Source of the DNA: Bursaphelenchus xylophilus
Lineage: Eukaryota > Nematoda > Chromadorea > Rhabditida > Aphelenchoididae
DNA: 64,000 nucleotides
Assembly (NCBI GenBank): GCA_904066235.2
Contig: CAJFCV020000001.1
Coordinates: forward strand, 5,518,001 to 5,582,000
Direction: 5' to 3'
Each line of letters begins with the position of its first letter. The stretch's first letter is position 1. The notes beneath the pieces are model-generated. The model ran no database searches, had not been told where the DNA came from, and saw only the letters and a program-made list of their open reading frames with translations. Shown in pieces: positions 18,417 through 53,451 of this stretch. Made by a program: the position numbers and the translations under genes.

Positions 18417-18459
18417 ATCCTTTGTCGAGTGGTCTAACTTATTGAAGTGATTAACTAAC

Positions 18460-20260: not shown

Positions 20261-20830
20261 CAAGGAAAGTACTTCTATGGGGTGTGGAATTACCGGTCGA
20301 GATATATATCAAAAAATTCGCAAAAATTTTCTGATTCAGAATATATAAAAATTAGCTGCCTAATTTTGGTCTATCAGCGAGTTTTTTCAATAAATGTTTT
20401 TCTCGAGGAAACAAATCTGCGGCAACAAAAGCGCGCTCGGTCTCTTCCTTCGGAAGAGAGCGGTGTGGCCGAGTGGTTAGAGCGCTAGATTGGGAATCCG
20501 AGGGGAACGGGTTCGATTCCTTTTGCCACACTAGAACCCATTTTTTACATTGGAACTACTTTTAAGGTGTAGTTGTAATCCAATTTGATATTTTAAGGCT
20601 TGTCAAGGCCTCAGAATTTAGTTTAGCACAAAACAAAATTTTTTATTGGTAAAAACACGGTCAAAAAGACACTTGCATGGTGTCGCGAGAAAACTTCTGA
20701 GGACAAAAACATGTCATTAGACCAAAATTAGGCAGCTAATTTATATATATTCTGAATCAGAAAATTTTTGCGAATTTTTTGATATATATCCCGACCGGTA
20801 ATTCCACACCCCATAGAAGTACTTTCCTTG
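20261..20830. mobile_element. tRNA-like-carrying inverted-repeat element (E1)
   Basis: The 570-bp palindrome has ends CAAGGAAAGTACTTCTATGG and their exact complement, flanked by TAA (20258-20260, 20831-20833). Arms of about 100 bp or more match closely. The centre carries a hairpin and a tRNA-like sequence. The element lies in the intron between 20197 and 20845. The matching intron of copy C (28807-28881) lacks it, which gives an empty-site comparison. Confidence 0.88.
20442..20532 (+). other. tRNA-like sequence with 5' hairpin, in E1
   Basis: A 17-nt hairpin, CTCTTCCTTCGGAAGAG (20442-20458), is followed by an A-box (TGGCCGAGTGG), a candidate loop TTGGGAA, and a B-box (GGTTCGATTCC). GTGTGGC and GCCACAC pair at the ends, but the T stem is poor, so this is tRNA-derived rather than a confident functional tRNA. 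The Pol III promoter boxes are intact. Confidence 0.6.
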
Positions 20831-20844
20831 TAAAATCATTTTAG

Positions 20845-23800
20845 GACTACATGAAAAAAGCCGGGAAGAGCGAGGTAAATGTTAAGCCAAGACCCGCTGA
20901 TCCACTGCCAGTTTTTGAAAACAATTTTGTGGGAGGTGTCTTGAAGAAGGTGGTGGAAGAAGGGGGCATCGACAGTGTGATTGGCAATATTAGAACCGGT
21001 CTAATGCTCGTCGGCGATCAGGATCTGGGCATTCTCTTCACTGAAAACTTCATCAAGCCCACTTCTTGTGTTGGATGTAATATTACACCGTTAATTACGA
21101 CGACAGCCTTATCTCGTATATTCATGAGAGTCTCTCCCTACTTTAAGAACGAGGAATTGGTCGCCGTCGATAAATTCTGTTGTATGGGATTCGAAGTGAA
21201 CTCAGCATTGGCCAAAATGATCAAAGTGTTCAACCCAGAGATGATGGGAAAGATGTACCGACAAGAATTGGATGGTATCAACCCCAAGGGAAAGGAGATC
21301 AAAGGCCTATTGCAACATGATGATAATACGGTTGGAATGACGGCGTATCTACTCATTCAACAGACGTTATTTGATGACAAGAACAATAATTCCAAAAAGA
21401 AGACTTTGAAGAATGCGAAGAGAGTACCTTGCGAGCATAAAGGAGAATTGGATCCAGAAGCCACCAAGAGTTTCCCTCTTAATCAGAAGTTTGTGAATCT
21501 GGTCAGGACCCAGATGGAAGCTTCCAATGCTCCAGAAGTCGTCAATTTGACAAAGGAATTAATCCAGAAAGTAAAGGATAATGTCTTGGGAAGAAGATTC
21601 AGGACAAAGATAGTACAAGCACTTGGTCATAAAGGCGTGGAGGCTGGGATCTACGGAATAGTGGCCTCTCTGGAACGAGGGATTCAACAGGAAGCATTTT
21701 GGGCCAGTCAAGATTGTTGTATTGGGAAGAAGATCAGAGATACGATCACATTGCTGTTAAATTATCCTCTAGTGGAGCAAGGAGATGCCTTTAGAAGAGA
21801 ACTTTTGCTCACTCGGCTTTATTTCGAAGAAAAGTTTCCCAATTTCGATCGACTTTTGGAAGAAGATCGCGAATTACTGGCTGCCATTATGAGTTGCGTA
21901 GTAAAGAAGCTGTTATGTGATGGGAACGACTCTTCAGATGGAATCAACTGCCTCCATCCTCATCCTGAATACATCGTGGACCCAGAACTTTTTGATAAAG
22001 TTCTCCAGACGATCAAGCAATGCGGTGATTACTCTAAATTGCTGCATAATCCTCTGAAGACAAGCAAACACATTAGGAAAATGATTGCCGAGCATAATGA
22101 TTTTATGGAAAGAGGGCTAAAGTGCCAGATGGATAATGTCGGGAAGACATTCAACGAGTTCTGGGAGGCGTTGATCAGAGGAAACTTCGAAAAAATGGTC
22201 ACCAATTTCAATCGAAATATCGTCCGATCTCCAACAGACGATTCTACTACAAGTCTACTGAGAAAAGCGGCTTATTTATTGGTGAAAGAGACTGAAGTTG
22301 GAGGATTCCAAAATTGGGACGAGCTTTTTTCAATTACTCAGCGATTCGACGCGTTATCTGTGACCGTTCCCATCGCAAAGATCTTATTAATCGACATTGA
22401 GACCCTTGGAACTATGTACAGGAAATGCCTGAGGGGATTGAACGTCAAAAATGAAGAGATCTGCGCCGTTTTGAAGTCACCGGATCATATTCTGGGCCGG
22501 TTTGCCGTTGTTACAATGTACTATCTACTGTTCCCAGAAGAAGCCAATAAGAGTAAAGCCGTGTTACCGAAGGTATCTGGAAAGATGCAACCATTGTCAT
22601 TGGACAGAGAGTTCTACAATGAGGTCGAGAAGATGGTAGAGCAACAGCCAGAGCAGTACAAGGAATCTCTCCGGAAGAAGATGGAGTTGATCACGGATGA
22701 GACTCTTGGAAGGAGATTCAGAACTCATATTGCGGAGCTCGCAGCAGTAAAGAACAAGGCGGAGTATGTTATAATGAAATCGCTGGTGCTATTGGATCCC
22801 TTCTTCAAATCTCCAGAGGTTTGTTCCAAAAGAAGTCCATGTTGTTTTGGAAGAGCTCTCAGATCAATTTTGAAGATCGTATTGTCCTTAACATTCCTTG
22901 ATGTTATGCTAAGTCTACGAAGAAATGGCGATCTCCACACATGTATATTTTCAACAGCGTCCCGTAGACATCTGAAAGGAGGCGACGATTCTTTGGAATT
23001 CAGTGGAATGGCCACCTTGTACATGCTGGATAAGATGCTCTTCAAATCGCCCATTCCAACCGACGGATCCACTTGTAGACATGAGATTGCTCCAGACGAA
23101 GAAAACGACATCTTCAAACAGGCTTTGATCACGATCGGGAAGGAAGAGAAATTAACTACCGTTCTCCATAATCCAAAGGAAAGCCAAAAACGACTGAAAG
23201 ATATCATCAAAAGTGAAGTGGAAGAACGTTGGGGACCTGTTGATCTCAATTTGGATGAGGTTGAGATCAGATTCAGTGAGTTGGTGTTCAAATTGAGTAA
23301 GAGCGGGTTCCCCTTGGTAGCCACTTACTTCAAGCTTTCCCTCCTTAACATCGATGAATCTGTCAAATCAACCACCACCATATTGAAGAAAGCGATAGTT
23401 GATGTATTCTTTGAATCTGAAGACATGGACTTCCACATACCTTACACGAGAGAGGAATGTGCTGGGTTTGACGCGCACTTTTTTGGATATACTGTGGGAG
23501 ATTCAATCTTCAAGATGATCCTCATGGAATGCGATGATGTCGGAGAATCATTCAGAAGATCGCTAAAGAAATTCGTTGGGAATGACCCGAGAATCGAGAG
23601 TCTACTCAAGAAATGTGATGATTATCTGGGGATCTTCTTCTTCGTCCTCATCGACATCCTTTTACTCTGTGATGTAGACGGGTCTGGGGAAGACGATTCG
23701 TTGATCCACAAGATATTGTCCCCCGAGGAATTGGCCTTCGGAAGTTTTGAGGAACTCGAAAGGAAAGTGGCCGCCTCTCCTCCAAGACTAATCGCTTCAT

Positions 23801-24159
23801 CGATGAGAAAAGTCTTGGCTTTCAACCAGAAAGATCAATCGTTGATGGCCGAGAACTTTAAGGACATTATTTTTGGAACCATGAGACTGTTAACACCTCA
23901 ATTGGAGGGTCTATCCGATGATGAGATCGCTCAGATCAAGGACAAAAAGCTGGCACAATATCTGAAGGATTTCATCAAAAAAGCTCTTTCTATGGACACA
24001 AATGTGGGAAGCGTGGTTAAATCAGCTACTTCCGCCATCAGAAATCTTCACCCAACCCTCAGACTTCAGATCCCGGCCCATAATGCTTACTGGACCACCG
24101 TTATTTTCCTATCCATCAAGAAACTGATCTCCGATCGGGATGTTGTAGACACTTTGTAA
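20845..24159 (+). CDS. multi-repeat family protein, copy B, large 3' exon
   Basis: One 1,104-codon exon starts DYMKKAGKSE after a TTTTAG acceptor, in phase 0 with 15084 and 20197. About six helical repeat units can be seen at residues 90-175, 272-358, 497-565, 648-735, 858-942 and 1010-1100. Each is built around a YF/FF..P start, often CC.G, then (V/L/M)G..(F/Y)R..L, LL...D..LG, and a hydrophobic stretch ending LLF or similar. CEHKG and LGRRFRT recur in linkers. No signal peptide, membrane segment or known catalytic motif is evident. A solenoid-like scaffold is possible but is inference. The stop is followed at once by a GTAAGT donor, suggesting a 3'-UTR intron. Copies C and D are close relatives. 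Confidence 0.85.
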   Translation, partial: DYMKKAGKSEVNVKPRPADPLPVFENNFVGGVLKKVVEEGGIDSVIGNIRTGLMLVGDQDLGILFTENFIKPTSCVGCNITPLITTTALSRIFMRVSPYFKNEELVAVDKFCCMGFEVNSALAKMIKVFNPEMMGKMYRQELDGINPKGKEIKGLLQHDDNTVGMTAYLLIQQTLFDDKNNNSKKKTLKNAKRVPCEHKGELDPEATKSFPLNQKFVNLVRTQMEASNAPEVVNLTKELIQKVKDNVLGRRFRTKIVQALGHKGVEAGIYGIVASLERGIQQEAFWASQDCCIGKKIRDTITLLLNYPLVEQGDAFRRELLLTRLYFEEKFPNFDRLLEEDRELLAAIMSCVVKKLLCDGNDSSDGINCLHPHPEYIVDPELFDKVLQTIKQCGDYSKLLHNPLKTSKHIRKMIAEHNDFMERGLKCQMDNVGKTFNEFWEALIRGNFEKMVTNFNRNIVRSPTDDSTTSLLRKAAYLLVKETEVGGFQNWDELFSITQRFDALSVTVPIAKILLIDIETLGTMYRKCLRGLNVKNEEICAVLKSPDHILGRFAVVTMYYLLFPEEANKSKAVLPKVSGKMQPLSLDREFYNEVEKMVEQQPEQYKESLRKKMELITDETLGRRFRTHIAELAAVKNKAEYVIMKSLVLLDPFFKSPEVCSKRSPCCFGRALRSILKIVLSLTFLDVMLSLRRNGDLHTCIFSTASRRHLKGGDDSLEFSGMATLYMLDKMLFKSPIPTDGSTCRHEIAPDEENDIFKQALITIGKEEKLTTVLHNPKESQKRLKDIIKSEVEERWGPVDLNLDEVEIRFSELVFKLSKSGFPLVATYFKLSLLNIDESVKSTTTILKKAIVDVFFESEDMDFHIPYTREECAGFDAHFFGYTVGDSIFKMILMECDDVGESFRRSLKKFVGNDPRIESLLKKCDDYLGIFFFVLIDILLLCDVDGSGEDDSLIHKILSPEELAFGSFEELERKVAASPPRLIASSMRKVLAFNQKDQSLMAENFKDIIFGTMRLLTPQLEGLSDDEIAQIKDKKLAQYLKDFIKKALSMDTNVGSVVKSATSAIRNLHPTLRLQIPAHNAYWTTVIFLSIKKLISDRDVVDTL

Positions 24160-24470
24160 ATGTAAGTATTTATCTTAGGAAAACGGTATTGTATTATATT
24201 ATACAGATTTTCATAACGAGAATTCTTTCAGAAACCACAAGAATCAACAACTACGGGAACTTTCATTCTTTATTTATGCTGATCGGGTACTAGCTTTAAC
24301 GGCATAATAATTGTTAAATTCTACCTCAAAGGTTTTGATCTAATAAACTTACTGTGCTGTAATGAGGGAAGAGTACTTAAGGTGAAAATGGTGCAGCTTT
24401 TGCAACTGTAATTTTACCGAAACGACAAATTCGCCACTTAAAAAGCTACAAACAGAAAACTTCCCTTGTA
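24160..24470 (+). other. 3' UTR region of copy B
   Basis: A donor at 24162 and an acceptor ending at 24231 (TTCTTTCAG) flank a probable 3'-UTR intron. The sequence is repeated after the truncated copy at 39378-39516. Nothing coding is seen. Confidence 0.5.
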
Positions 24471-24675
24471 CTAGTCGCGACATAAAGTCCGTAGAATTTT
24501 TCGCGGCCCCCAAATTCCGTCGCGCTCCGAAATGTTGATTTGTCGCTGCGAAAAACGGGAATCGCGCGCGACAATAAGGCAAAATCAACAAAATTGCACA
24601 GTGCAAAATGTGTTTTCGGGTGAATGCACAGTGGGGAGTCGCAGAAAATTTATACGGACTTTATGTCGCGACTAG
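24471..24675. mobile_element. small inverted-repeat element (MITE)
   Basis: Ends CTAGTCGCGACATAAAGTCC and their complement enclose 205 bp, flanked by TA (24469-24470, 24676-24677). The TA duplication fits a Tc1/mariner-type MITE. There is no coding capacity. Confidence 0.8.
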
Positions 24676-24679
24676 TAGA

Positions 24680-25360
24680 ATCATGAGTGAAGCCAGAAAC
24701 TTGGGCCTTTACCTTGACTCCGAACTAACTTTTTTAAACCACCATGCAAAAACTAGTAGAAACTGCTCCAAAACCCTCTATGCGATCCGAAGAGCACGGG
24801 AACACCTTTCAGTAAAACACTGTACCTTTTTGGTCGAAAGTCTGCCTTTCTCTGTCGCCTCCTCCTTTTTTGTCAACTTTTAACTTTGGACTAAATTTGC
24901 AGGGTTCGGATGGATTCTTGCGGAGAGGTTTAGAAGTCCCGAGCCATATATCCCGCATCCGCACTTTCCTGCCACTAACTATGGTATCCGAAAACGTGCA
25001 CCAAGAACATTACTCAAAAATCATGAGATTGTCACTCATAGTTATTTATTCCGAAAAGAAACATGCTGATGTATCTCATCTCGCAGTAAAACATCAATGG
25101 GGGTTACTCCCTGAGCTCGCCACCACAGAGTTTGCTCAACTTATAAACAAAGTCAGAAATCAACGAACAAGTGAGTACCTAAATGGTCAACTTGTATTAA
25201 AACAAGACCACTATCGCTAGAGGCGACAGAGGTTTGAAACACCTTTCTGTAAAACCGATATAGGACAAAAAACATTTAAATTTCGTGCCAGTACTGTGTC
25301 TAACCAATCCTGACCGATTCACCACCGAACCGGACGGTCATGGCGCGCAGGGAATTTGTC
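24680..25360 (+). mobile_element. fragment of a non-LTR retrotransposon (LINE) 3' end
   Basis: Protein fragments in shifted frames match the C-terminal part of LINE reverse transcriptases: NLGLYLDSELTF, then KTLYAIRRAREHLS, later HLAVKHQWGLLPEL, and finally a KTFKFRASTV.N tail. The reading frame is broken near 24880 and the 5' part is absent. It is a dead, 5'-truncated copy of Jockey/CR1-like type; the clade is uncertain. Confidence 0.65.
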
Positions 25361-25761
25361 TAGCTAGCGCAATAAAGTTAAAAGTTGCGAAATTCTACCA
25401 ATAAATCAGACAATTCATTGACATTCCGCTCTCGCAATTAATTTTTGGCCTGCGTAAAATCTTGACCAAAATCTTGGTTGCCAACGTTGTCGACGGATTT
25501 CGGCGATTCCCGCATGTGATCCGTTTCTTGTCTTGTGTTACATCACCGCTTATATAATTTTACGTTTTGTTTCTATTGTCTAAGTTTAGGAAAGCATTCT
25601 TGATAGGCTAAAAGCGATTCTTCTTCTTCTGAAGAATTGCTCGTACGCTGGTCGACATTTTACTTTGCATCTGCATTTCGGCTCTTTCTGTTTTTTTTTT
25701 TGTTGTTTTACCTACTATAATATAATTTTCAGCATTCAGCACTTTTCACCAAATTTGAAGG

Positions 25762-27276: not shown

Positions 27277-27454
27277 ACTTGTCCTCGGAAATTTGGTTGC
27301 TTTAATAAATAAATTTTTGTTTTTATCAACAGGTTTAACAGAAGAGAAAGGAATCCCTTATTATTGGGTGCTTATACCTATTTGCGTCAGATCGTTGTAA
27401 CCTTTTGCCCGATCGGGCTTCCGGAAACTGAAAAACAGCGGCAAAAGGCCGCGC

Positions 27455-27760
27455 ACGTCAAGAAAAAATAAAACAAAAGCGCTCAAGCAATGAAAAATTC
27501 TTGGCATTCTTTTTGATTACACATGGAAGATGGGGTAGAATGAGTTTATTGCATACCTAAATTTGAAGCTGGACTCGAAAAAATCAAATGAGCCAGTTTC
27601 GAGATAGGAAATCTCTTCATTTTACGCAATATTTCGCCTTTCGTCTGACCTCGTCCGAAAAACCGTCATTGAAACGGATTTTTTGGACACTTTCATATGC
27701 GGAGACTGAATGCCAACTTTCGTGTTGAAACATAACCCTTTGAGCGCAAAATCTTGACGT
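27455..27760. mobile_element. small inverted-repeat insertion
   Basis: It is present here but absent from the duplicated segment near 41410. Ends ACGTCAAGA / TCTTGACGT are flanked by the 7-bp direct repeat GCCGCGC (27448-27454, 27761-27767). The superfamily is uncertain. Confidence 0.7.
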
Positions 27761-27874
27761 GCCGCGCTTTTTTGGGTTTCTTTGTCTGATTCTTTTGTTA
27801 TTTCTTTCGGTATCAGGAGGACATCTTCTTTGCCCAGATGGTCTTCCCTGGAAAGATTTGATCGCGTGTTTTCG

Positions 27875-28509
27875 AAGGGAGACTGAATATGAACTGGGGT
27901 GCTGACTGAATATGAGACCGAATATGAACTGACTGAATATGAAAACCGGCCGGTTTTCATATTCCGGGTTTCTGTTACTGTTACTACCTAGGTTACGATT
28001 AAGGAGTCTGTTTGAAATTTTTTCGACTTATAACACCTTTAGACGTTAATGGTGTTGTTTTGGTGCCTAGTACTGCTTAAAAAAAACATTTTTAGCACTT
28101 GGTGCAAAATAATACTACCTGGTACTATTTAGTACGGGGAGAAAATTTGGCCGGTAATGGTGTTGGTTTGGTGCTTAGTACAGCCCAAAAACACATTTTT
28201 AACACTTGGTACTATATAGTCCTTGAAATAGACCAAACTTGCCAAATTTCATATTCAGTCAGCACCACAGGTCATATTCAGTCAGTTCATATTCGGTCAG
28301 TTTATATTCAGTCGTTTTCATCTTCAGTCAGTTCATATCAGTCTGTCGGGAAAATAACGGCGGATTATCGCAGCAAAATGTCTCGCCTCGCCGCTATCGC
28401 GCACCAAATCCCCAGCCGCGGCTTTCAGTCGCTGAGCGATGATGGGCGATTCCAAGGCGCGACGATCCGCCGTTATTTTCCCGACAGACTGATATTCAGT
28501 CAGGCACCC
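27875..28509. mobile_element. inverted-repeat element with GACTGAATATGA motifs, containing a nested palindrome
   Basis: The empty site is seen in the duplicated segment near 41519. It is flanked by about 10-bp repeats, CGTGTTTTCG (27865-27874) and CGTGTTTTTCG (28510-28520), which would fit a Mutator-like insertion. The ends hold many copies of GACTGAATATGA in both orientations. A separate perfect-ended palindrome lies inside at 28336-28494 (TATCAGTCTGTCGGG at each end) and looks like a second insertion. Confidence 0.65.
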
Positions 28510-28704: not shown

Positions 28705-31700
28705 ATGAAGAAAGTTGCGCAGAAAATGGCCACTCTTGATCTGAAAACAAAAGAAAGCAGCACATTTTTTGCCGAGAAAGTTGGGGAAGAAGAGGCCGTC
28801 AATACGGTAAGAGTGGTTTTATGAAATTTTTTATACCATGAGTAATGGTTGATCTGTGAATTTTTATTCTTATCATTTTAGGACTACATGAAAAAAGCCG
28901 GGAAGAGCGAGGTAAATGTTAAGCCAAGACCCGCTGATCCACTGCCAGTTTTTGAAAACAATTTTGTGGGAGGTGTCTTGAAGAAGGTGGCGGAAGAAGG
29001 GGGCATCGACAATGTGATTGGCAATATTAGAACCGGTCTAATGCTCGTCGGCGATCAGGATCTGGGCATTCTCTTCACTGAAAACTTCATCAAGCCCACT
29101 TCTTGTGTTGGATGTAATATTACACCGTTAATTACGACGACAGCCTTATATCGTATATTCATGAGAGTCTCTCCCTACTTTAAGAACGAGGAATTGGTCG
29201 CCGTCGATAAATTCTGTTGTATGGGATTCGAAGTGAACTCAGCATTGGCCAAGATGATCAAAGTGTTCAACCCAGAGATGATGGGAAAGATGTACCGACA
29301 AGAATTGGATGGTATCAACCCCAAGGGAAAGGAGATCAGAGGCCTATTGCAACATGATGATAATACGGTTGGAATGACGGCGTATCTACTCATTCAACAG
29401 ACGTTATTTGATGACAAGAATAATAATTCCAAAAAGAAGACTTTGAAGAATGCAAAGAGAGTGCCTTGCGAGCATAAAGGAGAATTGGATCCAGAAGCCA
29501 CCAAGAGTTTCCCTCTTAATCAGAAGTTTGTGAATCTGGTCAGGACCCAGATGGAGGCTTCCAATGCTCCAGAAGTCGTCAATTTGACAAAGAAATCAAT
29601 CCAGAAAGTAAAGGATAATGTCTTGGGAAGAAGATTCAGGACAAAGATAGTACAAGCACTTGGTCATAAAGGCGTGGAGGCTGGGATCTACGGAATAGTG
29701 GCCTCTCTGGAACGAGGGATTCAACAGGAAACATTTTGGGCCAGTCAAGATTGTTGTATTGGGAAGAAGCTCGGAGATACGATCACATTGTTGTTAAATT
29801 ATCCACTAGTGCAACAAGGAGATGCCTTTAGAAGAGAACTTTTGCTCACTCGGCTTTATTTCGAAGAAAAGTTTCCCAATTTCGATCGACTTTTGGAAGA
29901 AGATCGCGAATTACTGGCTGCCGTTATGAGTTGCGTAGTAAAGAAGCTGTTATGTGATGGGAACGACTCTTCAGATGGAATCAACTGCCTCCATCCTCAT
30001 CCTGAATACATCGTGGACCCAGAACTTTTTGATAAAGTTCTCCAGACGATCAAGCAATGCGGTGGTTCCTCTAAATTGCTACATAATCCTCTGAAGACAA
30101 GCAAAAACATTAGGAAAATGATTGCCGAGCATAATGATGTTATGGAAAGAGGGCTAAAGTGCCAGATGGATAATGTCGGGAAGACATTCAACGAGTTTTG
30201 GGAGGCGTTGATCAGAGGAAACTTCGAAAAAATGGTCACCAATTTCAATCGAAATATCGTCCGATCTCCAACAGACGATTCTACTACAAGTCTTCTGAGA
30301 AAAGCGGCTTATTTATTGGTGAAAGAGACTGAAGTTGGAGGATTCCAAAATTGGGACGAGCTTTTTTCAATTACTCAGCGATTCGACGCGTTATCTGTGA
30401 CCGTTCCCATCGCAAAGATCTTATTAATCGACATTGAGACCCTTGGAACTATGTACAGGAAATGCCTGAGGGGATTGAACGTCAAAAATGAAGAGATCTG
30501 CGGCGTTTTGAAAACACCGGATCATATTCTGGGCCGGTTTGCCGTTGTTGTAATGTACTATCTACTGTTCCCGGAAGAAGCCAATAAGAGCAAAGCCGTG
30601 TTACCGGAGGTATCTGGAAAGATACAACCATTGTCATTGGACAGAGAGTTCTATAATGAGGTCGAGAAGATGGTAGAGCAACAGCCAGAGCAGTACAAGG
30701 AATCCCTCCGGAAGAAGATGGAGTTGATCACGGATGAGACTCTTGGAAGGAGATTCAGAACGCATATTGCGGAGCTAGCAGCAAAGAACATGGCGGAGAA
30801 TGTTATAATGAAATCGCTGGTGCTATTGGATCCCTTCTTCAAATTGCCAGAGGCTTATTCCAAAAGAGGTCCATGTTGTTTTGGAAGAGCTCTCAGATCA
30901 ATTTTGAAGATCATGTTGTCTTTAAGATTCCGTGATGTTATGCTAAGTCTAAATAGAAATTACGATCTCCCCGGATGTATATGTTCAACAGTGCCTCATC
31001 GACATATGGAAGGAGCCGTCGACCATTATTCGGATTTCAGTGGAATGGCCACCGTGTACATGCTGGATAAGATGCTCTTCAAATCGCCCATTCCAACCGA
31101 CGGATCCACTGGTAGACATGAGATTGCTCCAGACGAAGAAAACGACATCTTCAAACAGGCTTTGATCACGATCGGGAAGGAAGAGAAATTAACTACCGTT
31201 CTCCATAATCCAAAGGAAAGCCAAAAACGACTGAAAGATATCATCAAAAGTGAAGTGGAAGAACGTTGGGGACCTGTTGATCTCAATTTGGATGAGGTTG
31301 AGATCAGATTCAGTGAGTTGGTGTTCAAATTGAGTAAGAGCGAGTTCCGCGCGTTAGCCACTTACTTCAAGGTTTCCCTGCTTAACGTCAATGAATGTGT
31401 CAAATCAACCACCACCATATTGAAGAAAGCGATGTTGGATGTATTCTTTGAGTCTGAAGACATGGACTTCCACATACCTTACACGAGAGAGGAATGTGCT
31501 GGGTTTGACGCGCACTTTTTTGGATATACTGTGGGAGATTCAATCTTCAAGATGATTCTCATGGAATGCGATGATGTCGGAGAATCATTCAGAAGATCAC
31601 TAAAGAAATTCGTTGGAAATGACCCGAGAATCGAGAGTCTACTCAAGAAATGTGGTGATTATCTGGGGATCTTCTTCTTCGTCCTCATCGACATGCTTAT

Positions 31701-33332: not shown

Positions 33333-33787
33333 TTTTGAAACGGCCAAAAATATTAAAAAAGTTGCCAAATAGTCCATGCGGTAGTAGGTTTTTGGACATG
33401 CTCTTTCGAATGGCATTAGCAGTTTTTTGATATCTCTTACCAATCCTTAGATACTGAAATTTTCCATGGGGTAGGTATACTTTCGTAACGGATTGTATTA
33501 AGTATTAGAGGAAAAGTTAACATGATTTTCGAAATCAGCACCCTCGAAACCCCCTAAATCGAGTATTTTTTTAAAATTCAAAAATTACTACTTTACTAAC
33601 GAGGGAATGGTCTGAACTTCCCCCAGCGTTTGGGAAAATGACTAGTACAGGTGGATAGAGCAAGTCAACTTTGGTAAAAAGAGACATTTTCCAGCTGCGG
33701 AATAAGCCCGGCCGACGAGAAAAATCGACCGAAAGTTCCACAAAAATTTCCTCTTTCTCTTCCCTCGGAAAAGAAGAGCGGTGTCCA

Positions 33788-33862
33788 GTGGTTCGGTTAG
33801 CCGAGTGGATAGAGCATCCGCTCGATATTCTTTTGGGGGTGGGTTCGATTCCGGGGTCTCGC
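33788..33862 (+). other. tRNA-like sequence, left arm
   Basis: A-box TAGCCGAGTGG and B-box GGTTCGATTCC are separated by a long middle region with a G-rich stretch, which suggests a class II (long variable arm) tRNA ancestor. Stems are weak. A hairpin-like CTCTTCCCTCGGAAAAGAAG lies upstream, as in E1. Confidence 0.5.
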
Positions 33863-34123
33863 AAAGGGCCGTGATAAGGCTTTGATGATGAGCAAGACCA
33901 ATCCCTAACAAACCAAAAAAAAATTTTTTTGCCTTTTTCAAAGTCAAGTCTATCACCAAACGAGTATAACTTCGATGGTTCATCGCTTTGAATGTTCGGA
34001 AGCACCCAAAAAATTCATTTGTTGACGATTATTTTTTGGTATAAAACGTATAAAAATGGCAAAATATTTTTTTTGGTTGTTAGAGCTTGATCTTGCTCAT
34101 CAAAAGCCTTATCACGGCCCTTT

Positions 34124-34198
34124 GCGAGACCCCGGAATCGAACCCACCCCCAAAAGAATATCGAGCGGATGCTCTATCCACTCGGCTAACCGAACCAC
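34124..34198 (-). other. tRNA-like sequence, right arm
   Basis: An inverted, practically identical copy of the tRNA-like sequence at 33788-33862. It has the same A-box and B-box, read on the minus strand. Confidence 0.5.
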
Positions 34199-34386
34199 TG
34201 GACACCGCTCTTCTTTTCCGAGGGAAGAGAAAGAGGAAATTTTTGTGGAACTTTCGGTCGATTTTTCTCGTCGGCCGGGCTTATTCCGCAGCTGGAAAAT
34301 GTCTCTTTTTACCAAAGTTGACTTGCTCTATCCACCTATACTAGTCATTTTCCCAAACGCTGGGGGAAGTTCAGACCATTCCCTCG

Positions 34387-35770
34387 CACAGCATTCCGAA
34401 CTTTTTCCGCCGCCGATCGGTGTCCAAAAAAATGAAAAATTAAAAAGTGCACATTACATTTTCATGTGTGTAAGGGTAGCCAGAAGAGATACCGGCAAAA
34501 ACAAAAACTCTATGTAGAGTAATCAATTTCCTTTCAGAGTATGTAAGTTTTGCCTTCAGGTTGTCCGCTACCTTTGAGAAAATCGTCACTAAAAAAATGG
34601 AAATTTCGATTTTGAATGCCAAAAAAATGTGCTTTCTTGGGGCCACCAAAAAAGATGTTGGAGTCTATCGTAAAGAGAATTTCAAGGGCTACAACATATT
34701 AAAGTTTCAAGATTTTTGTGGGGGTTTAAGCCAAGTTAGAGTGAAAAAACCCCTGATTTTGCACTTTTTCTCGATTTGTTTGCACTTTTAGTGCAAAAAT
34801 AAAAAACCATCCGTGGGCGATGGAATCTGTGTGTCATGTCGGATATTCATGCCAAATTTGAAGCTTCGCCGACGCTCCGGAGTCGCTGAATATCCGTTTA
34901 AATACGAAACCTTAGAGTACTATTTCTATTGTTTGAAGTCGCTTTATATGCTCCAAGATACGTTTTGATCAAAAGTATATTGGCTATATACAGTGTATAA
35001 CAACATCTTATCATTTACTCACGATATATTTTTTTCATTTCGAAAATTGAATTTGGCAGATAATCCTTCACAGAGCCAACTTTTCGTTGCAACAACCAAT
35101 TAAATTAACCGCCAAGCTGAGTTAGACTTTTGCAATTAAGTCGTTATGCAGTTGTTATACACTGTATACAGGCAATATATTTTTGATCAAAAGGGATCTT
35201 GGAGCACATAAAGCGATTTCAAACGACAGAAATAGTACTCTAAGGTTTCGTATTTAAACGGATATTCAGCGACTCCGGAGCGTCGGCGAAGCTTCAAATT
35301 TGGCATGAATATCCGACATGACACACAGATTCCATCGCCCACGGATGGTTTTTTATTTTTGCCCTAAAAGTGCAAACAAATCGAGAAAAAGTGCAAAATC
35401 AGGGGTTTTTTCACTCTAACTTGGCTTAAACCCCCACAAAAATCTTGAAACTTTAATATGTTGTAGCCCTTGAAATTCTCTTTACGATAGACTCCAACAT
35501 CTTTTTTGGTGGCCCCAAGAAAGTACATTTTTTTGGCATTCAAAATCGAAATTTCCATTTTTTTAGTGACGATTTTCTCAAAGGTAGCGGACAACCTGAA
35601 GGCAAAACTTACATACTCTGAAAGGAAATTGATTACTCTACATAAAGAGTTTTTGTTTTTGCCGGTATCTCTTCTGGCTACCCTTACACACATGAAAATG
35701 TAATGTGCACTTTTTAATTTTTCATTTTTTTGGACACCGATCGGCGGCGGAAAAAGTTCGGAATGCTGTG
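34387..35770. mobile_element. 1.38-kb near-perfect palindromic element
   Basis: Ends CACAGCATTCCGAACTTTTT and their complement are flanked by the 5-bp repeat CCTCG (34382-34386, 35771-35775). The two arms match over almost the entire element, including the reading-frame shadows on both sides, with only a short unlike centre near 34990-35170. No protein-coding capacity was recognised. Confidence 0.78.
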
Positions 35771-36130
35771 CCTCGTAAGGAAAACCTAAGAAAATACCTA
35801 ACAAGGAAAAAAAAGAGTTGTAAGGAAAAAAGTAACAATCAAAAAAATGAATGTCATTTTCGAAATCAGTAAATTATCCTATTGGTTGATGAATAATTAT
35901 CCGGCGGTTTTATTGGCGCGTTTTTTGTTAGTTAAAATTCGCGTTTTGTTAATTTTTTCCATAAAAATAGTCTTCTCTGTTTAGTTAATAAAATGCGTGT
36001 CGAAAACCATACTCGTATTCGCCATATTATGCTCTACCATTTCGAGAAAGGTTGGAAGTCAGCACTGTCATTTCGCGATCTCAACCAACTTTTCGGCGAA
36101 GGAACAAAAAAATCGCCACTGTAAGAACTA

Positions 36131-36368
36131 CACTGCTGGACAAAATGATATGACCACCGCAATTTTGCGCTGGCGATTTGTCCATGGTAAATGAATTGCT
36201 TTAATATTTGGTGAAAGTGAGCATGGAGCAATTGAAATCCTTTGATACTTTTTGGGTACATGTTACATTGCTCCATACTCACTTTCACCAAATATTAAAG
36301 CAATTCATTTACCATGGACAAATTGCCAGCGCAAAATTGCGGTGGTCATATCATTTTGTCCAGCAGTG
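36131..36368. mobile_element. Tc1-like MITE
   Basis: Ends CACTGCTGGACAAAATGATA and their complement are flanked by TA (36129-36130, 36369-36370). The end sequence resembles the Tc1 terminal repeat, which begins CAGTGCTGGCCAAAA. 238 bp, mostly palindromic, non-coding. Confidence 0.88.
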
Positions 36369-36709
36369 TATGTGGAATAACGAATTTTAACTAACTAGGG
36401 AAGTGTACAAACGAACCCTCGCCAAATGGCAAGTGTTATACACCATTGGAAAGCCCTTGAAAAATGGTGCAAGACACCATTTTCATTTTTTGCAGAATGC
36501 CTCACTAGGGAAGTGTACAAACGAACCCTCACCAAATGGCAAGTGATATACACCATTTGAAAGCCCTTGAAAAATGGTGCAAGATACCATTTTCATTTTT
36601 TGCAGAATGCCTTTCCGCGACGACACACTGTAAATTATATTATTGTTAGGTCATTTCGCAACAAAAATCTTTCTTTCTCTTGAGCGGATAAAAATCATCG
36701 GAGAGGGTT

Positions 36710-36781
36710 GCTTCAATAGTGCAGTGGTTAATGAGCAGGCTGATAAGCCAAACCAAGCTAGGTTCGATTCCCAGCTTGGGC
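36710..36781 (+). other. tRNA-like sequence, outer element
   Basis: A-box TAGTGCAGTGG, B-box GGTTCGATTCC, and a four-of-five-pair T stem (CTAGG / CCCAG). The acceptor stem is imperfect and the anticodon arm does not close in a standard way. 72 nt, without a long variable arm, so it has a different ancestor from the other tRNA-like cassettes here. Confidence 0.5.
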
Positions 36782-37010
36782 AAAAACGTTTTGCGTTTTT
36801 ACAGTTAGGAAAATATTTGACAAGGGAAGTCGTTCAGATCGCAAATGAACTATGACATGAGACCTGTGTGGTTTTATAGTCACATACTCTACTATATCGA
36901 ATATAAAGGCATTTTTGCGTCTGGGCCCCCGCGGCCGAGAAAATCGACTATAAAGTTTCGCAAGAAGAGAGCGCCGAAAAAGTCCTCTCTCCGAAAGCAA
37001 ACCCAAACAG

Positions 37011-37095
37011 CTGCCCAGTTGGCCGAGTGGAAAGAGCGCTCGTCTAACGAATCTTCTTTTGGGTCGGGGGGCTGGGTTCGATTCCTTTCACCTGC
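37011..37095 (+). other. tRNA-like sequence, left arm of inner element
   Basis: A-box TTGGCCGAGTGG and B-box GGTTCGATTCC flank a long G-rich middle (GGGTCGGGGGGC). This is compatible with a class II tRNA ancestor. Anticodon and acceptor stems are weak. Confidence 0.5.
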
Positions 37096-37354
37096 AATGT
37101 AAAGGGTAAGACTACTGTGTACACTACAGTATGCGTAAAAAAAATTTTTTTTGTGTTTTTCCAATTTTATGTAGATTTGTGCCTTTTCTTGAGACAAAAA
37201 CAAACAAATTTAGTCGACTTTTCTCCAGACTGTTAAAAATGGCATGACTTGGAATGGTAATCGGAGAGCTTCCTGCGGCTACGCCGCAAGGCTATCGGAA
37301 AGTTGTCGAAAGGAAGTAAAGTGATTTTTTATCACTCTTTGATTTTGTTTGGAC

Positions 37355-37909
37355 ATGGGATTGGCGCCTAAAAATGTTGTGGCTCTCCTCTTGGCCGAGT
37401 TCGGAACCGGGAACTCCGAAGACGCGACTTACGAGGAGACTCGGATGGCAACCCGACTGAAGATTCTGCTGTCTCAAGCGGCGGAAGACGCGAATAATGA
37501 GGTTCAAACGGACGATGAGATTATGGACAACAATAGCAGTGGGGACGAGAATGACGATGACAGCGACTTCGAATTGGACGTTGAAGGCCATCAAGAACGT
37601 GATGAAAGAGGAACTGGAGAGATATGGATGGGACGAAAATTCGTGTCGCTAGATCAAATACGAGCAGTCAAACGATATTGGCTATTGTCGAATCGATCGG
37701 TTGGCGCTGTCAGGAAACGGTGCAGGTTCATTCGAAGCGACTACTACTGGAGAAAGATGACGGACCTGTGGAAGAAAGGTAAGGCTACAGTTTGTTGATG
37801 ATTTTTTTGTAGATGAAGTTGTCGCAGATCGGCGTGTTCGCATAAAGAAGCTGGCTTCTGATCTTTTTGAGCGGGCGAAGGAGAGATTGTCGACTGGGAC
37901 TTCCGATCC
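37355..37909 (+). CDS. protein fragment encoded in the centre of the inner element
   Basis: Start at 37355. Exon 37355-37778, a 34-nt intron with GTAAG donor and TTGTAG acceptor, then an open frame from 37813 that runs on into the right arm. The product has a hydrophobic N-terminal helix, a strongly acidic middle (SSGDENDDDSDFELD), and a basic segment (RAVKRYWLLSNRSV, KRCRFIRSDYYWRK) that could be a DNA-binding helix bundle. I do not recognise the family. It is either an element-encoded protein or a captured host fragment. Confidence 0.5.
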
Positions 37910-38075
37910 GATTACCATTCCAAGTCATGCCATTTTTAACAGTCTGGAGAAAAGTCGACTAAATTTGTTTGTTTTTGTCTCAAGAAAAGGCACAAATCTA
38001 CATAAAATTGGAAAAACACAAAAAAAATTTTTTTACGCATACTGTAGTGTACACAGTAGTCTTACCCTTTACATT

Positions 38076-38160
38076 GCAGGTGAAAGGAATCGAACCCAGC
38101 CCCCCGACCCAAAAGAAGATTCGTTAGACGAGCGCTCTTTCCACTCGGCCAACTGGGCAG
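38076..38160 (-). other. tRNA-like sequence, right arm of inner element
   Basis: Mirror copy of the sequence at 37011-37095, with the same A-box and B-box read on the minus strand. Confidence 0.5.
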
Positions 38161-39377
38161 CTGTTTGGGTTTGCTTTCGGAGAGAGGACTTTTTCGGCGC
38201 TCTCTTCTTGCGAAACTTTATAGTCGATTTTCTCGGCCGCGGGGGCCCAGACGCAAAAATGCCTTTATATTTGATATAGTAGAGTATGTGACTATAAAAC
38301 CACACAGGTCTCATGTCATAGTTCATTTGCGATCTGAACGACTTCCCTTGTGAGTTAAACTTTTACAAACGCTTTAATTTTTCTAGAAAACGGTAGATTA
38401 CGGTTATAATCATCAAACTTACATGTTTTTCAAGATTAAAAAAAGTGAAAAGTGTTTTTTCACGTTATGGGTATCTAAAACCAGTAAATATCATATGTAA
38501 AATGGTTTTACTGGCAAGCGCCAAACTTCATAATAATTCTTAGGCCAACCTAGTAGCAATACGTATCATTTAACGTTTTGAAATAAGATTTATTTTGCCC
38601 TACAGCAGATATTGTAACTACTTAAGGGACAAATCAGCCGTTTATAATTTTTTGCCCTAGGGCATTCTGCAAAAAGTGAAAATGGTACCTTTCACCATTT
38701 TTCAAGGGCTTTCCAATGGTGTATAACACTTGCCATTTGGTGAGGGTTCGTTTGTACACTTCCCTAGTCAGGGCAAAAAATTATAAACGGTTGATTTGTG
38801 CTTTAAGTAGTTACAATATCTGCTGTGGGGCATAATAAATGTTATTTCAAAACGCTAAATAGTACGGAATGCTACTGGGTTGGCCTAAGGATCATTATGA
38901 AGTTTAGCGCTTGCCAGTAAGACCATTTTACATATGGTATTTACTGGTTTTAAATGCCTATAATGTGAAAAAACACTTTTCACTTTTTTTAATCTTGTAA
39001 AACATGTAAGTTCGATGGTTTTAACCGTAACCGACCGTCTTCCAGTAAAATTAAAGCGTTTGTAAAAGTTTAACGCAAATATTTTCCTAACTGTAAGAAC
39101 GCAAAAATGATTTTGTCAAGCTGAGAACCGAACCTGCGGCGATTTTTTCCTGCTCAAGAGAAACAAAGATTTTTGTTGCAAATGGCCTAAAAATAATATA
39201 ATTTACAGTATGTCGTCGCGGAAAGTCATTCTGCAAAAGATGAAAATGGTGTCTTCTACCATTTTTCAAGGGCTCTTCAATGACGTATGTCACTTAGCAT
39301 TTGGTGAGGGTCCGTATGTACACTTCCCTAGTAACAAAAAACGCCCCAATAAAACCGCCGGATAATTATGCATTTAG

Positions 39378-48116: not shown

Positions 48117-50051
48117 CTGAAACAATTTAAGAATTAGAATATATTTAAGATTTTGAGGATTGGTCACAAAAGATTTGTAGTTTCTTCAAAGAATGACATC
48201 ACAATGGTATTATCCGAACGTCCCGAGAGTAATGTTTGGTTGGGGTTTCTTCTTTATAGCGTTAGAATCGTAGTAGCAAATGGTCAGTTGTACTCGTGCA
48301 GCTAATCCCCTTAATCTGCGGTCTATAATCCCATAGTACACTAGACCTGAATGTTACACTAGAAATGTCTGCAGCCTGCTATTTCTGCGTTCACAGTCTT
48401 TTTGGATAGTAAATGGCATAGAGGTAAAGATTAAGCCTTTCTAAGTTGGTATAACCTATTTTCGAGGCCTTGAATAATATTTACAAATTTGGAAATTACT
48501 GTATTCTAAGTTTACGTGTAGATTGATAGCTTTTTATTGTTTACAACCGCCTTTTTCTTGTGTGTACGGCTTTTACTCCGCTTTAAAGCTTGTTACATTT
48601 CCTGATTTATGGCTCAATTAATTGTAGACAAGCCCTAAGGGCTTGGAGATGGATGATGACCGGAAAGGTTGCTTTGCAACTCCCCTAGAATAACATCAAA
48701 ACAAATTTTGAGATCAATTCTCTCCGAATATTTCCGGTTTAAAGAAATTGAATTGGTTCCAAAAGATATTTGCAAAAATAAAAGATGGGAAGGAATGAAA
48801 AAAGGCGTTAATGGACTGGATCATGTGGGATTTGAGAAGATCCGGGGATAAATTTAGATAAGAGCAAGGGCAGAGATCAAAAGTATGAGCGCCTGGTGTA
48901 AAAAAGTAGCGTGATTTTAGTGTAATTTATAAAAATTTGGAGCTGAGACTACCTATAGTAATACAATTTGAAAACTAATCGATTTATTTTTTTTATCAAA
49001 GATTTTTGTAATTTTCTGCCTCACCACGAATCCCTGAGAAGTTTGGACAAGCCTACGAGGTTCTGCTCACATTTCCGAATCTTACTTTTACTAAAATCAC
49101 AAGATATTAACTTGAGATTTAAATTGTACCCTTAAATATGGGTAAAAAAATTGTAGTCAAATGATGTTAAAGTTACAACTAGATCAACAGTGTGAGTTGC
49201 ACTGTTAGTTACCGCCTACATTTGGAAACCCATCAAGAGCACTTGAATTTATATTGTACCGGGCTCTCTTGACATTAGCTTAAGTATATTTGAATTCGAG
49301 TCCATCTTATGAGCGAAAAGGAAACCTATATTATGACCTTAGGTTAGAATGATCTCAAGTTAGCAAATTATACTCTCGGAGATAGTCAACTGCCGACCTT
49401 AAAGTATGATTATTACAACCCTTTGTAGAGAAAACGAAAAGTGTCGAGATCGGCGCGCTTGATCAAACATTCGTCGTGCGATGTTTGGTAATCGAATAAT
49501 CAAGGTTCAAAACAACGTTTCGAATCAAATTCCCGATCATTTTACGAAAAGACGACCTTATTTTCCAACGTCATTCAATTCAGTTCACCTAGTGTAATAT
49601 TGGAAAGTGAAAGTGGCAACTTCCAGGAGTTGGTCGGTTAAATTGGGAGTGCTTTGTTCACGACCTGTGTCTTTATGCTGTTTCGAGAGTGGGGACTCAA
49701 AAAATTAAAATTTTATAAACCAAATTAGAATATGCAAATACTATAGAGTAACAAATTAAATTAGACTATAAATCAGTAATATTAAAGCAGTAATATACTG
49801 CAGTAATTTGGTTTAGGACAGAGTCTACTCTCAGTTTTGCTCTTACTACACATGGATAAAAGATTTAGATATCCCTCGGGCTTACGTCGATCCCTACACT
49901 TTTCGAGTCATTCTAATGTCAAATACAATAGGTTAGTAACAATTGTTTCTCTAGTTTGCTAACTTTTTGCAACAAATTAATTCCAAATAAATTGGAACTA
50001 CAAATTAGTAAACAAAAGCAAAAACGATGGTTGTAAAAAAACAAAACTCAC
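48117..50051. other. probable intron / non-coding region
   Basis: No convincing exon was found, although phase requires at least one more exon if 50052-50279 belongs to the DUF4773 gene. No repeats were noticed. Confidence 0.4.
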
Positions 50052-50279
50052 ATGAATCTGCGTAATCTGCATAAACAATAGCCAGAGGAGCGTCTCCCGA
50101 AGTGGCGACATCTTCTCCTTCAGCTGGGATCACCAAAAAAATCCTGGATTGGTGACTCGTTTGCACGCGATTACTTTTTATAATCAGTGTAAGAACTTGG
50201 GCGGGGCTTGGTTTTATTATTTTGTTTTCGAAACAACCGGAAGACGGGCGAATATCGATGGAGTTGGCCAAGTTTGGGG
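50052..50279 (-). CDS. likely internal coding exon, perhaps of the DUF4773 gene
   Basis: It is bounded on the minus strand by an ATTTTCAG acceptor and a GTGAGT donor. It starts in phase 2 and ends in phase 1. It encodes 75 residues (NLANSIDIRPSSGC, RIFLVIPAEGEDV, PLAIVYADYAD). A direct join to 48116 breaks frame, so an exon is missing between them or the genes are separate. Confidence 0.5.
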
Positions 50280-52860
50280 CTGAAAATCATATCGTTGGTA
50301 TAAAATGTTGGGCGAACAGAAAGGGGATCGATCTTTAAGGGCGTATTTTAGGTTTATAAATAAGGTGAAAAATAAAGAAAAGATAAAAATTTACAAAAAA
50401 TAGAGAACTTTAGCAAAATGAGCAAATTTTGATCGAAATGCCAGGGGAAATACGTATTAAATATTTAGCAAATACGCCGAAGAAACGGATCTTTCCGGGT
50501 GTAAAATACGATCTCATATCTTGGGACTTCATAATGTCCCTTGAAAGTCGTTTAAAAGCTAACTTTACTATCTTTTTTCCGTAGGCTTATATTATTTTAG
50601 CCTAAGATTAACCAATAAATTTAAATATTTGGCCTAAGTACTTCCAAAAGTCAATTCTACTCCAAGTTGTTGTAAATAAACAGTAGTAAAATTACAGAAG
50701 CGTTTATAATGGCAGGATTACAATTGTCAATTTTTAAGCAGTAATTGTTAAAGAATGACCCCGCCTTGCAGTTTGTAATCTTGGCCACAAACTTGATGAC
50801 ATTTTAGGACAGAATGGTAATTCCGAATGTTAAGGACCCGAGAACTTTAAGAAAATACGTGCTACCGTGTCCTTCAAGTAGCACTGTTAAAGTTGCAATT
50901 TGTAGAAAAAAATTGGGAAAATTAATCCGGACTTGGAATGTTATGATTGAAATACGATAATTGGCGGACTTTACTGCGTATTTAAATGGTAATCCTAATT
51001 GAAATTGCATTGTTTTAAAATCCGGGAGTAAAACAAATTTCAAGATAAAAGGTACTGTAAAAACAAAGGAAACTTTTACAAATCTTGGAACCCAATTGGA
51101 ATAAGAGAATTACAACCTCTTATGCAATAGTTTCGAATACATTTTTGCTACAAAGAAACATAAACAAGAAGTTAATTAGTAGTCGAATTTAATTGTACAA
51201 TCCTCCCCAACAGTTACAATAAAAAGGCCCTTAAATAGTAGCAACTTTGAGTCTTTACAACGACCCCACTTTCTACACCCACCAAAATATTATTCAAATC
51301 TTTTTTCAAATATTTCAAACCCCACAAAAGTGGGCGGAGCCAACGCAAAGCTGCAAAAAAGGGAGGGTTAAATATAAAATATAAAAACATAGTACTCTGC
51401 AGGGAGTGATTGGATTAGGAGCCAGTGGATTAAATAGTATAGTAAACCGAAAATAAATTGGCTTAATTAATTACACGTAATCTATCTCCGGCAATTAACC
51501 GGGAAGTGATAGTGTAATGAACAAGGTGGTTAAAGAGTAAAACAGAAGTCAGTAGAGAGAAAGCAGGACCATTTTTTATCAAAAAGCGCAAAGGTTAAGA
51601 GTTCGGATTCCATGGATAATAAAATATGATAAAAAAATTACAAAACTCATTCTGAATTTGTGGTTATAACTTGGAATGGGACTCTGACAGTAGTTATTAT
51701 CTTCAGAGGCTCGAAATGCGGTTTGATCCCTAAGATGTTTGGACCGCGATTTGAAAAAGATCAATAAGTTTTGTTGATGAGAGACTATGGAAAACGAGGA
51801 GGGTCGTTAAAGAAAAATGGGGTGTGGCCAGATATTTCTGGATCTAGCGCCGAAAGATTTGCTTCGTTATACAAGTTTGTGCTTCTCCTCGTAAGCAGAC
51901 TGTAAATTTTTTACATTGAAATTCCCAAAATATTAGGTTTTGGAAATCATTGGCCTAAAAACTGTAGTAGTCGCTGGATTATGCTAGTAAAAATCTCACT
52001 CATGTCTTAGAAACCGCTGATTTAGATCTTTGCCAAGTTGAATAAAGATTTTATAATTTTGATTCGGGTATTTCCTTATTCCCGTCTTTAAACCGTCAAA
52101 AAATAATCTTCATTGAAATTAAACACTTAATTCTCCACGAAATACATCTTCCAAAAAAAGGGCTACAAATCACCTATTTTCCTACGTGTACATTAACCTA
52201 TGACGTAATCATGAAAGGTGCTTGCGTGTCCTTTGGCCAGATTCCCATTTCTGGGGCCAAGTCCAACCTCCAAAATGTTACAATTTAATCCGAAAACAAA
52301 GTGCCGATGACGACAAAATTGTAATCTACCCATTTGAAAGCACAGTAAATTACTTGTCGAAATATAATTGTAGCGCAAATATTTACATATAAAATGACAT
52401 GTGTTTTGGATTACATTTACATCACCAAATATAATTTTCACATTTTTTTGGAATCTAAGCTGTAATTAGACAAGGAAAGGGTTAGGAAAAGTTACTGTTT
52501 AATGTTTTGAATTTATTTTTAATCTGAAAAAATTAAATTCCCCACATTTTAAAGACATTCCCAACCAGATTAGAGAGCTATTTGTTGCGTCAAGCTGATC
52601 ATATTATCCATGGCCTTTAAATGGGATTACAATTTCGAGGAAATGACGATGAGAGGGGACGCAATGAGATCAGGCGTTGCAAAAAGAATGACGATTATTA
52701 CAACTTTGAAAACTTGGAAGGCTTATAGGGGAGAAAGGAATTAAAATACGGTGGAAAAAGGTTGATGACGAGAAATCTTAAATTTATTTGGTCCTCTTAT
52801 TAGTTACGTCATAGTGAGCAATTACAATTTTTTAAAAACATTTTATATTTTACTTTTTGA
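50280..52860. other. AT-rich non-coding region
   Basis: I see no splice-bounded coding exons, RNA genes or long inverted repeats here. It is probably intergenic or upstream intron. Confidence 0.5.
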
Positions 52861-53451
52861 CAAGGAAAGTACTTTTATGGGGGCTCCTACTTTTTGACGG
52901 GACATATCTCAAAAAATCAGAAAAAATGCGCTGATCAAGGATATATAAATCTTAGCTGCCCATTTTAGGTTTTTAAGGGTGAAAATGCCCAAAAACTGGT
53001 TTAATTTCCCTACAAAAGGCAGACATTCGAAACGATAAAAAGAGCACTCGATCTCTTCCTTCGGAAGAGAGCGGTGTGGCCGAGTGGTTAGTGCCGTAGT
53101 CTGGGAATCAAGAGGGGGGACGCCGCACAGGTTCGATTTCCCTTTTGGGCTGAATCAACTTTTTTGAAGTTGAAGGTCGGAAAAATAAATTTTTGGGCCA
53201 AGACTGTCTTATTACGTCTTAGAAACTCAATAAACACCATTTTAAGCCAAAATAAAAATTGTAAACCTTTGAAAAAATTAAGCGGAAAGGGGTTCATATA
53301 GGACTTTAAGTCAACTTCCGACTGAGTTTTCACCCCTAAAAACCTAAAATGGGCAGCTAAGATCTATATATTCTTGATCAGCACATTTTTTCTGATTTTT
53401 TGAGATATGTCCCGTCAAAAAGTAGGAGCCCCCATAAAAGTACCTTCCTTG
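52861..53451. mobile_element. tRNA-like-carrying inverted-repeat element (E2)
   Basis: 591 bp; ends CAAGGAAAGTACTTTTATGG and a near-exact complement, flanked by TGA (52858-52860, 53452-53454). The first 16 bases equal those of E1 at 20261. The centre has the same hairpin plus tRNA-like arrangement in the same orientation. Confidence 0.87.
53053..53150 (+). other. tRNA-like sequence with 5' hairpin, in E2
   Basis: Hairpin CTCTTCCTTCGGAAGAG (53053-53069) is identical to that in E1. It is followed by A-box TGGCCGAGTGG, a candidate loop CTGGGAA, a G-rich variable region and B-box GGTTCGATTTC. The ends do not pair well, so it is tRNA-derived, probably not a translating tRNA. Confidence 0.55.

Follow-up and report, generated by a model that had tools for sequence, protein, structure and literature searches.

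We analysed 64,000 nucleotides of the nematode Bursaphelenchus xylophilus (GenBank assembly GCA_904066235.2, contig CAJFCV020000001.1, positions 5,518,001 to 5,582,000 of the forward strand; hereafter the window), in which a sequence-only reading had noticed five inverted-repeat elements containing tRNA-like sequences. These elements and their partners elsewhere in the genome are members of the Tc4/Tc5 group (TcMar) and occur both in transposase-bearing forms and as miniature inverted-repeat transposable elements (MITEs). A cassette with the A and B boxes of a tRNA gene is present in each Tc5-type family found in B. xylophilus. The original observation is confirmed and is wider than first described. 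A and B boxes are the sites at which TFIIIC binds tRNA genes. Comparison of the sequences leads us to favour, with slightly better than even confidence, the view that this decayed tRNA-derived cassette is a maintained TFIIIC-binding module, resembling an RNA polymerase III (Pol III) type 2 promoter, of the Tc4/Tc5 mobile unit.

Direct reading and repeat searches recovered all five elements with the ends and TNA duplications ascribed to them: every window element has C(A/T/G)AGG(G/A)AA ends and lies between repeated copies of TNA. They are referred to below by their type of terminal inverted repeat (TIR). The F1 MITE (20261-20830, plus strand, 570 bp) has arms of about 130 bp and a TAA target-site duplication (TSD), and is located within an intron of a host gene. 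Its A box, TGGCCGAGTGG (20466-20476), and B box, GGTTCGATTCC (20510-20520), are on the plus strand, 205 and 249 bp from the end. A paralogous gene intron (28759-29067) provides the element-free site, with 94.5% identity over the joined flanks. The F2a MITE (52861-53451, plus strand; arms of about 130 bp, TSD TGA) carries its A box at 53077-53087 and its B box at 53130-53140, both on the plus strand. A further element had been read as extending from 33600 to 35775. It is indeed flanked by TAA, but is really a 787-bp fold-back element of type F3 (33600-34386, plus strand), the second TAA copy of which (35776-35778) lies beyond a nested insertion. The insertion is an unrelated palindromic element of 1384 bp (34387-35770), not of the Tc5 kind, that sits in the last bases of the F3 tip, with CACAGCATTCCG ends and CCTCG repeated at 35771-35775. 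The 284-bp arms of F3 are 100% complementary; the A and B boxes of the left arm (33798-33808 and 33842-33852, plus strand) are mirrored inward in the right arm (34178-34188 and 34134-34144, minus strand).

The stretch 36395-39331 had been listed as one element, and 36821-38350 as another. The CTAGGGAAG ends and TAA duplication of the former stand, but it is a triple nest, in which an outer F11 element contains an inner F11 element (36505-38767, TSD TCA), which in turn contains a long-armed fold-back element of type F4 (36821-38350, plus strand, TSD TGA). The opposite arm of the F11 host gives the element-free site for F4 (88.6% identity). The inner F11 element has an A box, TAGTGCAGTGG (36717-36727), and a B box, GGTTCGATTCC (36761-36771), on the plus strand of its left arm. 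F4 carries both boxes on both arms, with A and B at 37020-37030 and 37075-37085 on the left (plus strand) and at 38141-38151 and 38086-38096 on the right (minus strand). Intact boxes, which had been claimed for all five elements, are therefore found in F1, F2a, F3, F4 and the left arm of the inner F11 element, but the right part of the outer F11 element has only a B-like box, GGTTCGGTTCT (39124-39134, minus strand), with no A box found beside it.

The same architecture recurs outside the window. We compared 14 TIR types (11 families with sub-types), of which F1, F2a, F3, F4 and F11 derive from the window, F2b, F5, F6 and F10 were found via transposase similarity, and F4b, F5b, F7, F8 and F9 via the B-box pattern. 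Across the 14 types, the distance from the terminus to the start of the A box is 191-216 bp, and to that of the B box 239-269 bp, which puts the cassette at about 190-280 bp from the end; all cassettes point inward. The gap between the boxes is 32-34 nt in nine types and 42-53 nt in five, as compared with 32-35 nt in 20 host tRNA genes. Long-armed elements have the cassette on both arms where both are intact; the F1 and F2a MITEs have it on one side only. In two transposase-bearing elements, L048 and L31, the A and B boxes are at 201 and 245 bp, and at 198 and 254 bp, respectively, with transposases that are 31-34% identical over their aligned parts. All 14 arm types have an A box (at least 10/11 positions) and GGTTCG correctly placed and ordered, compared to 3 of 7000 dinucleotide shuffles of the arms, and no arm type (0/14) had such a pair facing outward or elsewhere in the arm.

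The cleanest test of cassette presence is a search of the genome (78.25 Mb, eight contigs) with the Tc5 C-terminal domain. Of 14 loci, 11 scored above the cut-off and one just below it; all 12, which represent four families and were chosen by transposase domain alone, have both boxes facing inward on at least one arm. Six of them (L031, L038-L041 and L048) overlap loci fetched previously, and L054 and L061 each have one end beyond the fetched stretch. The remaining two loci (E 3.4 and 7.0) showed no such element. Genome-wide, ACAAGGRAA followed after 230-260 bases by an inward GGTTCGA gave 546 matches (one end can match twice). The same end pattern with an outward GGTTCGA gave six, four of which start like Tc5-type ends identified here, and controls with the patterns read backward gave six and five. 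At least about ten TIR types were recognized by eye among the inward matches listed, all on contig C1. It is this outward control, along with the shuffled-arm test, that forms the basis for the specificity of the distance. Among the 67 L31-type ends in the genome, 52 had an exact GGTTCGA at the expected place. A search of a plasmid collection gave no match.

Although the boxes are kept, the tRNA is not. The B box was placed by GGTTCG in all 14 types and the A box by best fit to T-R-G-Y-N-N-A-R-T-K-G. Outside the placement motif, the A after GGTTCG is present in 13 of 14 types, and the closing CC in 12 and 13 of 14. The A box fits its full consensus in 13 types, while the 20 columns on either side peak at 10 of 14. 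Its variation lies chiefly at positions 2, 4, 5 and 6; positions 2, 5 and 6 also vary among the 20 host tRNA genes, whereas position 4, C or T in the cassettes, is C in all 20. ARAGORN and Rfam (gathering score) called no cassette in the window a tRNA, and no tRNA model accepted the cassettes at further loci (five loci with Rfam, 50 with ARAGORN in bacterial settings). The best sub-threshold score, in the permissive mode of Rfam, came from the F1 cassette at 20261 only (20.2 bits against a cut-off of 29; E 8.2). In addition, a run of four or five T residues (T4-T5) separates the boxes in nine of 14 types, six times as TCTTTTG, where shuffles predict 1.1; T4 or longer occurs in one of 20 host tRNA genes, boxes included. 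Since no tRNA model accepts them and most types have this T run, the cassettes are not tRNA genes, and the ideas that the elements carry tRNA genes and serve as a vehicle to spread them find no support. The suggestion of a Pol III promoter is borne out for the promoter boxes only, because a terminator-like T run lies between them in nine types. Nev-tRNAs, the class II tRNAs of nematodes, were also considered and rejected because the cassettes do not have the perfect cloverleaf described for Nev-tRNAs in the part of PMC4300185 covered here; a term search of that text found no mention of transposons or Bursaphelenchus.

Placement in the Tc4/Tc5 group rests on the TNA duplication, the fold-back arms and the domains of the partner transposases (Transp_Tc5_C, HTH_Tnp_Tc5 and DDE_1). 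Searches of the genome for partners returned one locus with DDE_1, 36 matches with the open frame of the F4 element and the 14 loci described above. L31 (L047 joined to L031; 2642 bp, TSD TTA) has arms of about 350 bp (98% identical), and its Tc5-type transposase sequence is split by one stop into two open pieces. In L048 (2246 bp, TSD TTA), the open frame spans 449 codons between stops. Pfam detected Transp_Tc5_C (PF04236, cut-off 27.4 bits) in both L048 (57.8 bits, 1.4e-15) and L31 (49.2 bits, 6.8e-13). HTH_Tnp_Tc5 (PF03221, cut-off 22.2) is above threshold in L048 (23.7) and below it in L31 (18.6), whereas DDE_1 (PF03184, cut-off 22) is above threshold in L31 (26.2) and below it in L048 (17.5); each of these two domains thus passes in one element of two and characterizes the group, not each copy. 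Fold-back terminal repeats starting with C(A/T)AGGGAA or similar were found in the Tc5-type elements, and TNA duplications flank the five window elements, both partners and most F1 copies (see below). We take the ends of Tc5 to be of the CAAGGGAAG type and liken the ends of the B. xylophilus elements to them. PIF/Harbinger elements also make a 3-bp TNA duplication, a likeness on which the sequence-only reading had drawn; this assignment was rejected, as L048 and L31 carry Tc5 domains and not a Harbinger transposase.

The outer 114 bp of the F2a MITE are about 96% identical to those of L048. Transposase for the MITE is therefore likely to come from L048 or a relative. We do not claim that L048 or L31 is active, since L048 misses a stretch that is kept in the related copy L049. 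L048 has the longest open transposase frame among the Tc5 elements found; the 15-kb contig that carries it (C7) begins with telomere-like TTAGGC-type repeats (positions 1-96 of the L048 locus). The statement that the window has no transposase also needs revision. Inside F4, the frame at 37355-37786 (plus strand) is a remnant that resembles the N-terminal part of Tc5-type transposases (residues 4-77 and 92-144, 31-40% identity to other Tc5-type copies), although Pfam recognized no family in this piece itself. Among 5.8 billion sequences, its sole match was a B. xylophilus protein, 99% identical over 98%.

The cassette travels with the element. Querying the genome with a 140-bp F1 arm produced 1198 first-look candidates; the 40 that were scored were all at least 98% identical. 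Thirty loci were fetched and 27 had both ends. Identical TNA copies flank 25 of the 27, with all four TNA forms occurring; a pyrimidine precedes TNA in 26 and a purine follows it in all 27. The A box (at most one mismatch) is present in 26 of 27 copies and the B box (at most two mismatches) in 27 of 27. Under a stricter rule, exact GGTTCG, five of the 27 do not have the box pair (L005, L007, L011, L020 and L026; L017 is absent from that listing). As for the loci outside the 27, L001 is cut before the cassette by a GC-rich repeat, L006 has both boxes, and in L016 the A box is present and the B box differs at more than two positions. Together with the L31-type ends, these counts bear out the proposal that the mobile unit includes the tRNA-like cassette and that its copies are built to one design: among the copies examined, the cassette is not absent from most members and the ends do not belong to unrelated families. 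Nucleotide diversity in F1 was 0.000 for the A box (26 copies), 0.013 for the outer arm, 0.097 for the B box and 0.103 between the boxes. Two main haplotypes are seen at F1 element positions 226, 228, 233, 244 and 259 (0-based), clustered in the cassette, while the outer arms are near uniform; this pattern may be due to selection, conversion or hypermutation. Targeted insertion at Pol III sites was rejected. In 76,350 flank bases of the 30 F1 loci, only L024 and L027 lie near another Tc5-type end, and ARAGORN (bacterial settings) found no tRNA gene in the same loci. The nesting inside the window is only suggestive of such targeting.

Comparison of sister elements showed that the inner arm can be exchanged. 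Two pairs of sister types agree at 95-97% over the outer arm: in L31 and L072 identity is about 95% over 128 bp, and in the F2a MITE and L048 it is about 96% over the outer 114 bp as noted above. Beyond these points, the members of each pair are little alike outside the boxes. The switch is abrupt, at about 114-128 bp, and yet in both pairs the different inner arms have A and B boxes at the same place. In the converse case, F1 (20261) and F2a (52861) share an identical 40-bp run that includes the A box, but their outer arms are visibly different. Recombination between co-resident families would preserve the position of the cassette; repeated capture of tRNA genes is also possible. In several families, the arms contain a second recurring block, approximately GGCCGAGAAAATCGACnnnAAAGTTT by eye, at about 105-140 bp from the end and near the point at which the sister types switch.

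We infer that the boxes are kept because host TFIIIC binds them. On our best reading, the cassette would act as an insulator or chromatin opener and not to spread tRNA genes. TFIIIC, alone or together with TFIIIB and Pol III, would occupy the arms and prevent nucleosomes and heterochromatin from forming there. Serving as a barrier or roadblock, arm-bound TFIIIC could shelter the transposase gene and limit the read-through transcription that would make the fold-back element double-stranded RNA. The T4-T5 run between the boxes of most types suggests that TFIIIC occupies them, or that Pol III makes no more than a short transcript there, rather than a tRNA. In C. elegans, 504 of 1029 TFIIIC sites are without Pol III; box A is found in 90% and box B in 87% of these, they cluster near H3K9me3-marked regions and 214 of the 504 overlap the repeat CeRep3 (PMC6950938, as far as covered here). 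Given these sites, a TFIIIC barrier is the most economical function for a box pair kept without a tRNA.

Several observations weigh against a maintained TFIIIC module. The types share family ancestry, so their counts are not independent, and F4b, F5b, F7, F8 and F9 give no independent support because they were found through the B-box pattern. GGTTCG in 14 of 14 types is likewise by construction, as it was used to place the B box. Fifteen of the 67 L31-type ends are without an exact GGTTCGA at the expected place. The F1 B box is barely more conserved than the segment between the boxes, chiefly owing to two sites, and this speaks against simple purifying selection in F1. Two cassettes are unnecessary for movement, since the F1 and F2a MITEs keep one side only. 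Finally, in five types (F1, F2a, F2b, F10 and F11) no T4 separates the boxes, leaving them open to transcription by Pol III; a Pol III transcript is possible, above all for these types.

Such transcription could be the purpose of the cassette, as an active Pol III gene giving a short inward RNA from each arm (about 60-150 nt) that is used by the element, or as a promoter for the transposase transcript. The intact boxes with largely tRNA-like spacing are in accord with this, the cassettes point toward the transposase gene where there is one, 13 of the 14 arms have T4 or longer downstream of the B box in the stretch that was read, and in F2b a T run comes directly after the cassette. However, the arms are AT-rich, which makes downstream T runs weak evidence, and T runs between the boxes are far above expectation in nine types; we therefore regard an active gene as unlikely. 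We give somewhat less credence still to passive inheritance, under which a tRNA gene was captured by an ancestral Tc5 element, and nothing more than common descent, with gene conversion from arm to arm, has preserved the boxes. A single ancestral capture fits the common position and orientation in all types, arms within one element are 90-100% alike, and 16 of 91 pairs of outer arms (positions 10-130) still stand out (above z 3). But the median identity of these pairs is 0.51, compared to 0.48 for shuffles, and the boxes remain near consensus in elements whose transposases have diverged to 31-34% identity. Inner arms have been exchanged with boxes present on both sides, and the comparison over 14 types points to boxes that change more slowly than their neighbours, though the F1 B box does not point that way. 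We consider it very improbable that the boxes belong to the site recognized by the transposase and are unconnected with TFIIIC. Their nearly fixed distance from the end would be expected of such a site, but the gap between them varies from 32 to 53 nt, A-box variation largely follows the tRNA promoter consensus, and the F1 and F2a MITEs spread although their right arm has no cassette.

A bolder extension of the TFIIIC-binding module is that Tc5-type transposons are carriers and seeders of the extra-TFIIIC sites of nematodes, each family having to keep the module, swapping cassettes and scattering portable insulators, and that CeRep3 is the same thing. We put this forward tentatively and think it may well be wrong. 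Like CeRep3 and the extra-TFIIIC sites of C. elegans, the B. xylophilus elements are repeats with tRNA-like A and B boxes; TFIIIC binding without Pol III is known for the CeRep3 sites and would be predicted here. Unlike them, CeRep3 copies are called putative tRNA pseudogenes, with no tie to Tc5 ends stated in the part of PMC6950938 covered. Tc4 has a CTNAG target, a TNA duplication and fold-back arms (PMC11071193, in part). The elements described here share with the Tc4 and Tc5 of C. elegans (TcMar, DDD transposases) the TNA in a CTNAG-like target, the fold-back arms and the Tc5 transposase domains, but differ in having a tRNA-like cassette in the arms, of which the literature covered gives no description for C. 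elegans. A search of titles and abstracts (subscription papers being outside its scope) found, among the matches listed, no paper on DNA transposons whose terminal repeats hold Pol III type 2 promoter boxes in a constant position, and none on tRNA boxes in Tc5-type arms. If the boxes bind TFIIIC, a cut-and-paste transposon would have adopted a host boundary factor, and the origin of many nematode TFIIIC-only sites would be explained in testable form.

tRNA-derived short interspersed elements (SINEs) are retroposons that have neither terminal inverted repeats nor a fixed 3-bp duplication. The elements resemble them in being short repeats whose A and B boxes derive from a tRNA, but their inverted repeats and TNA duplications rule out a SINE identity, and their partners carry a DNA transposase. 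Such repeats may be misfiled as SINEs or as tRNA pseudogenes. Of the nematodes compared in PMC11118728 (in part), B. xylophilus alone is reported to have SINE/tRNA-Deu-I; our guess is that this label covers some of the elements described here.

Other repeats were noted in the window. A short, near-perfect palindrome at 36129-36370 has 104-bp arms that are 98% complementary and ends like CACTGCTGGACAAAATGATATGACC, and is perhaps a MITE of the Tc1/mariner type; a match of this palindrome to the miRNA precursor RF03713 was sub-threshold (36.7 bits against a cut-off of 100). Upstream of the F1 MITE, the same gene segment occurs twice (13707-15102 and 18820-20215), with identical translations, and between the two copies lies a 791-codon reverse transcriptase frame (16092-18467, minus strand) with an RVT_1 domain.

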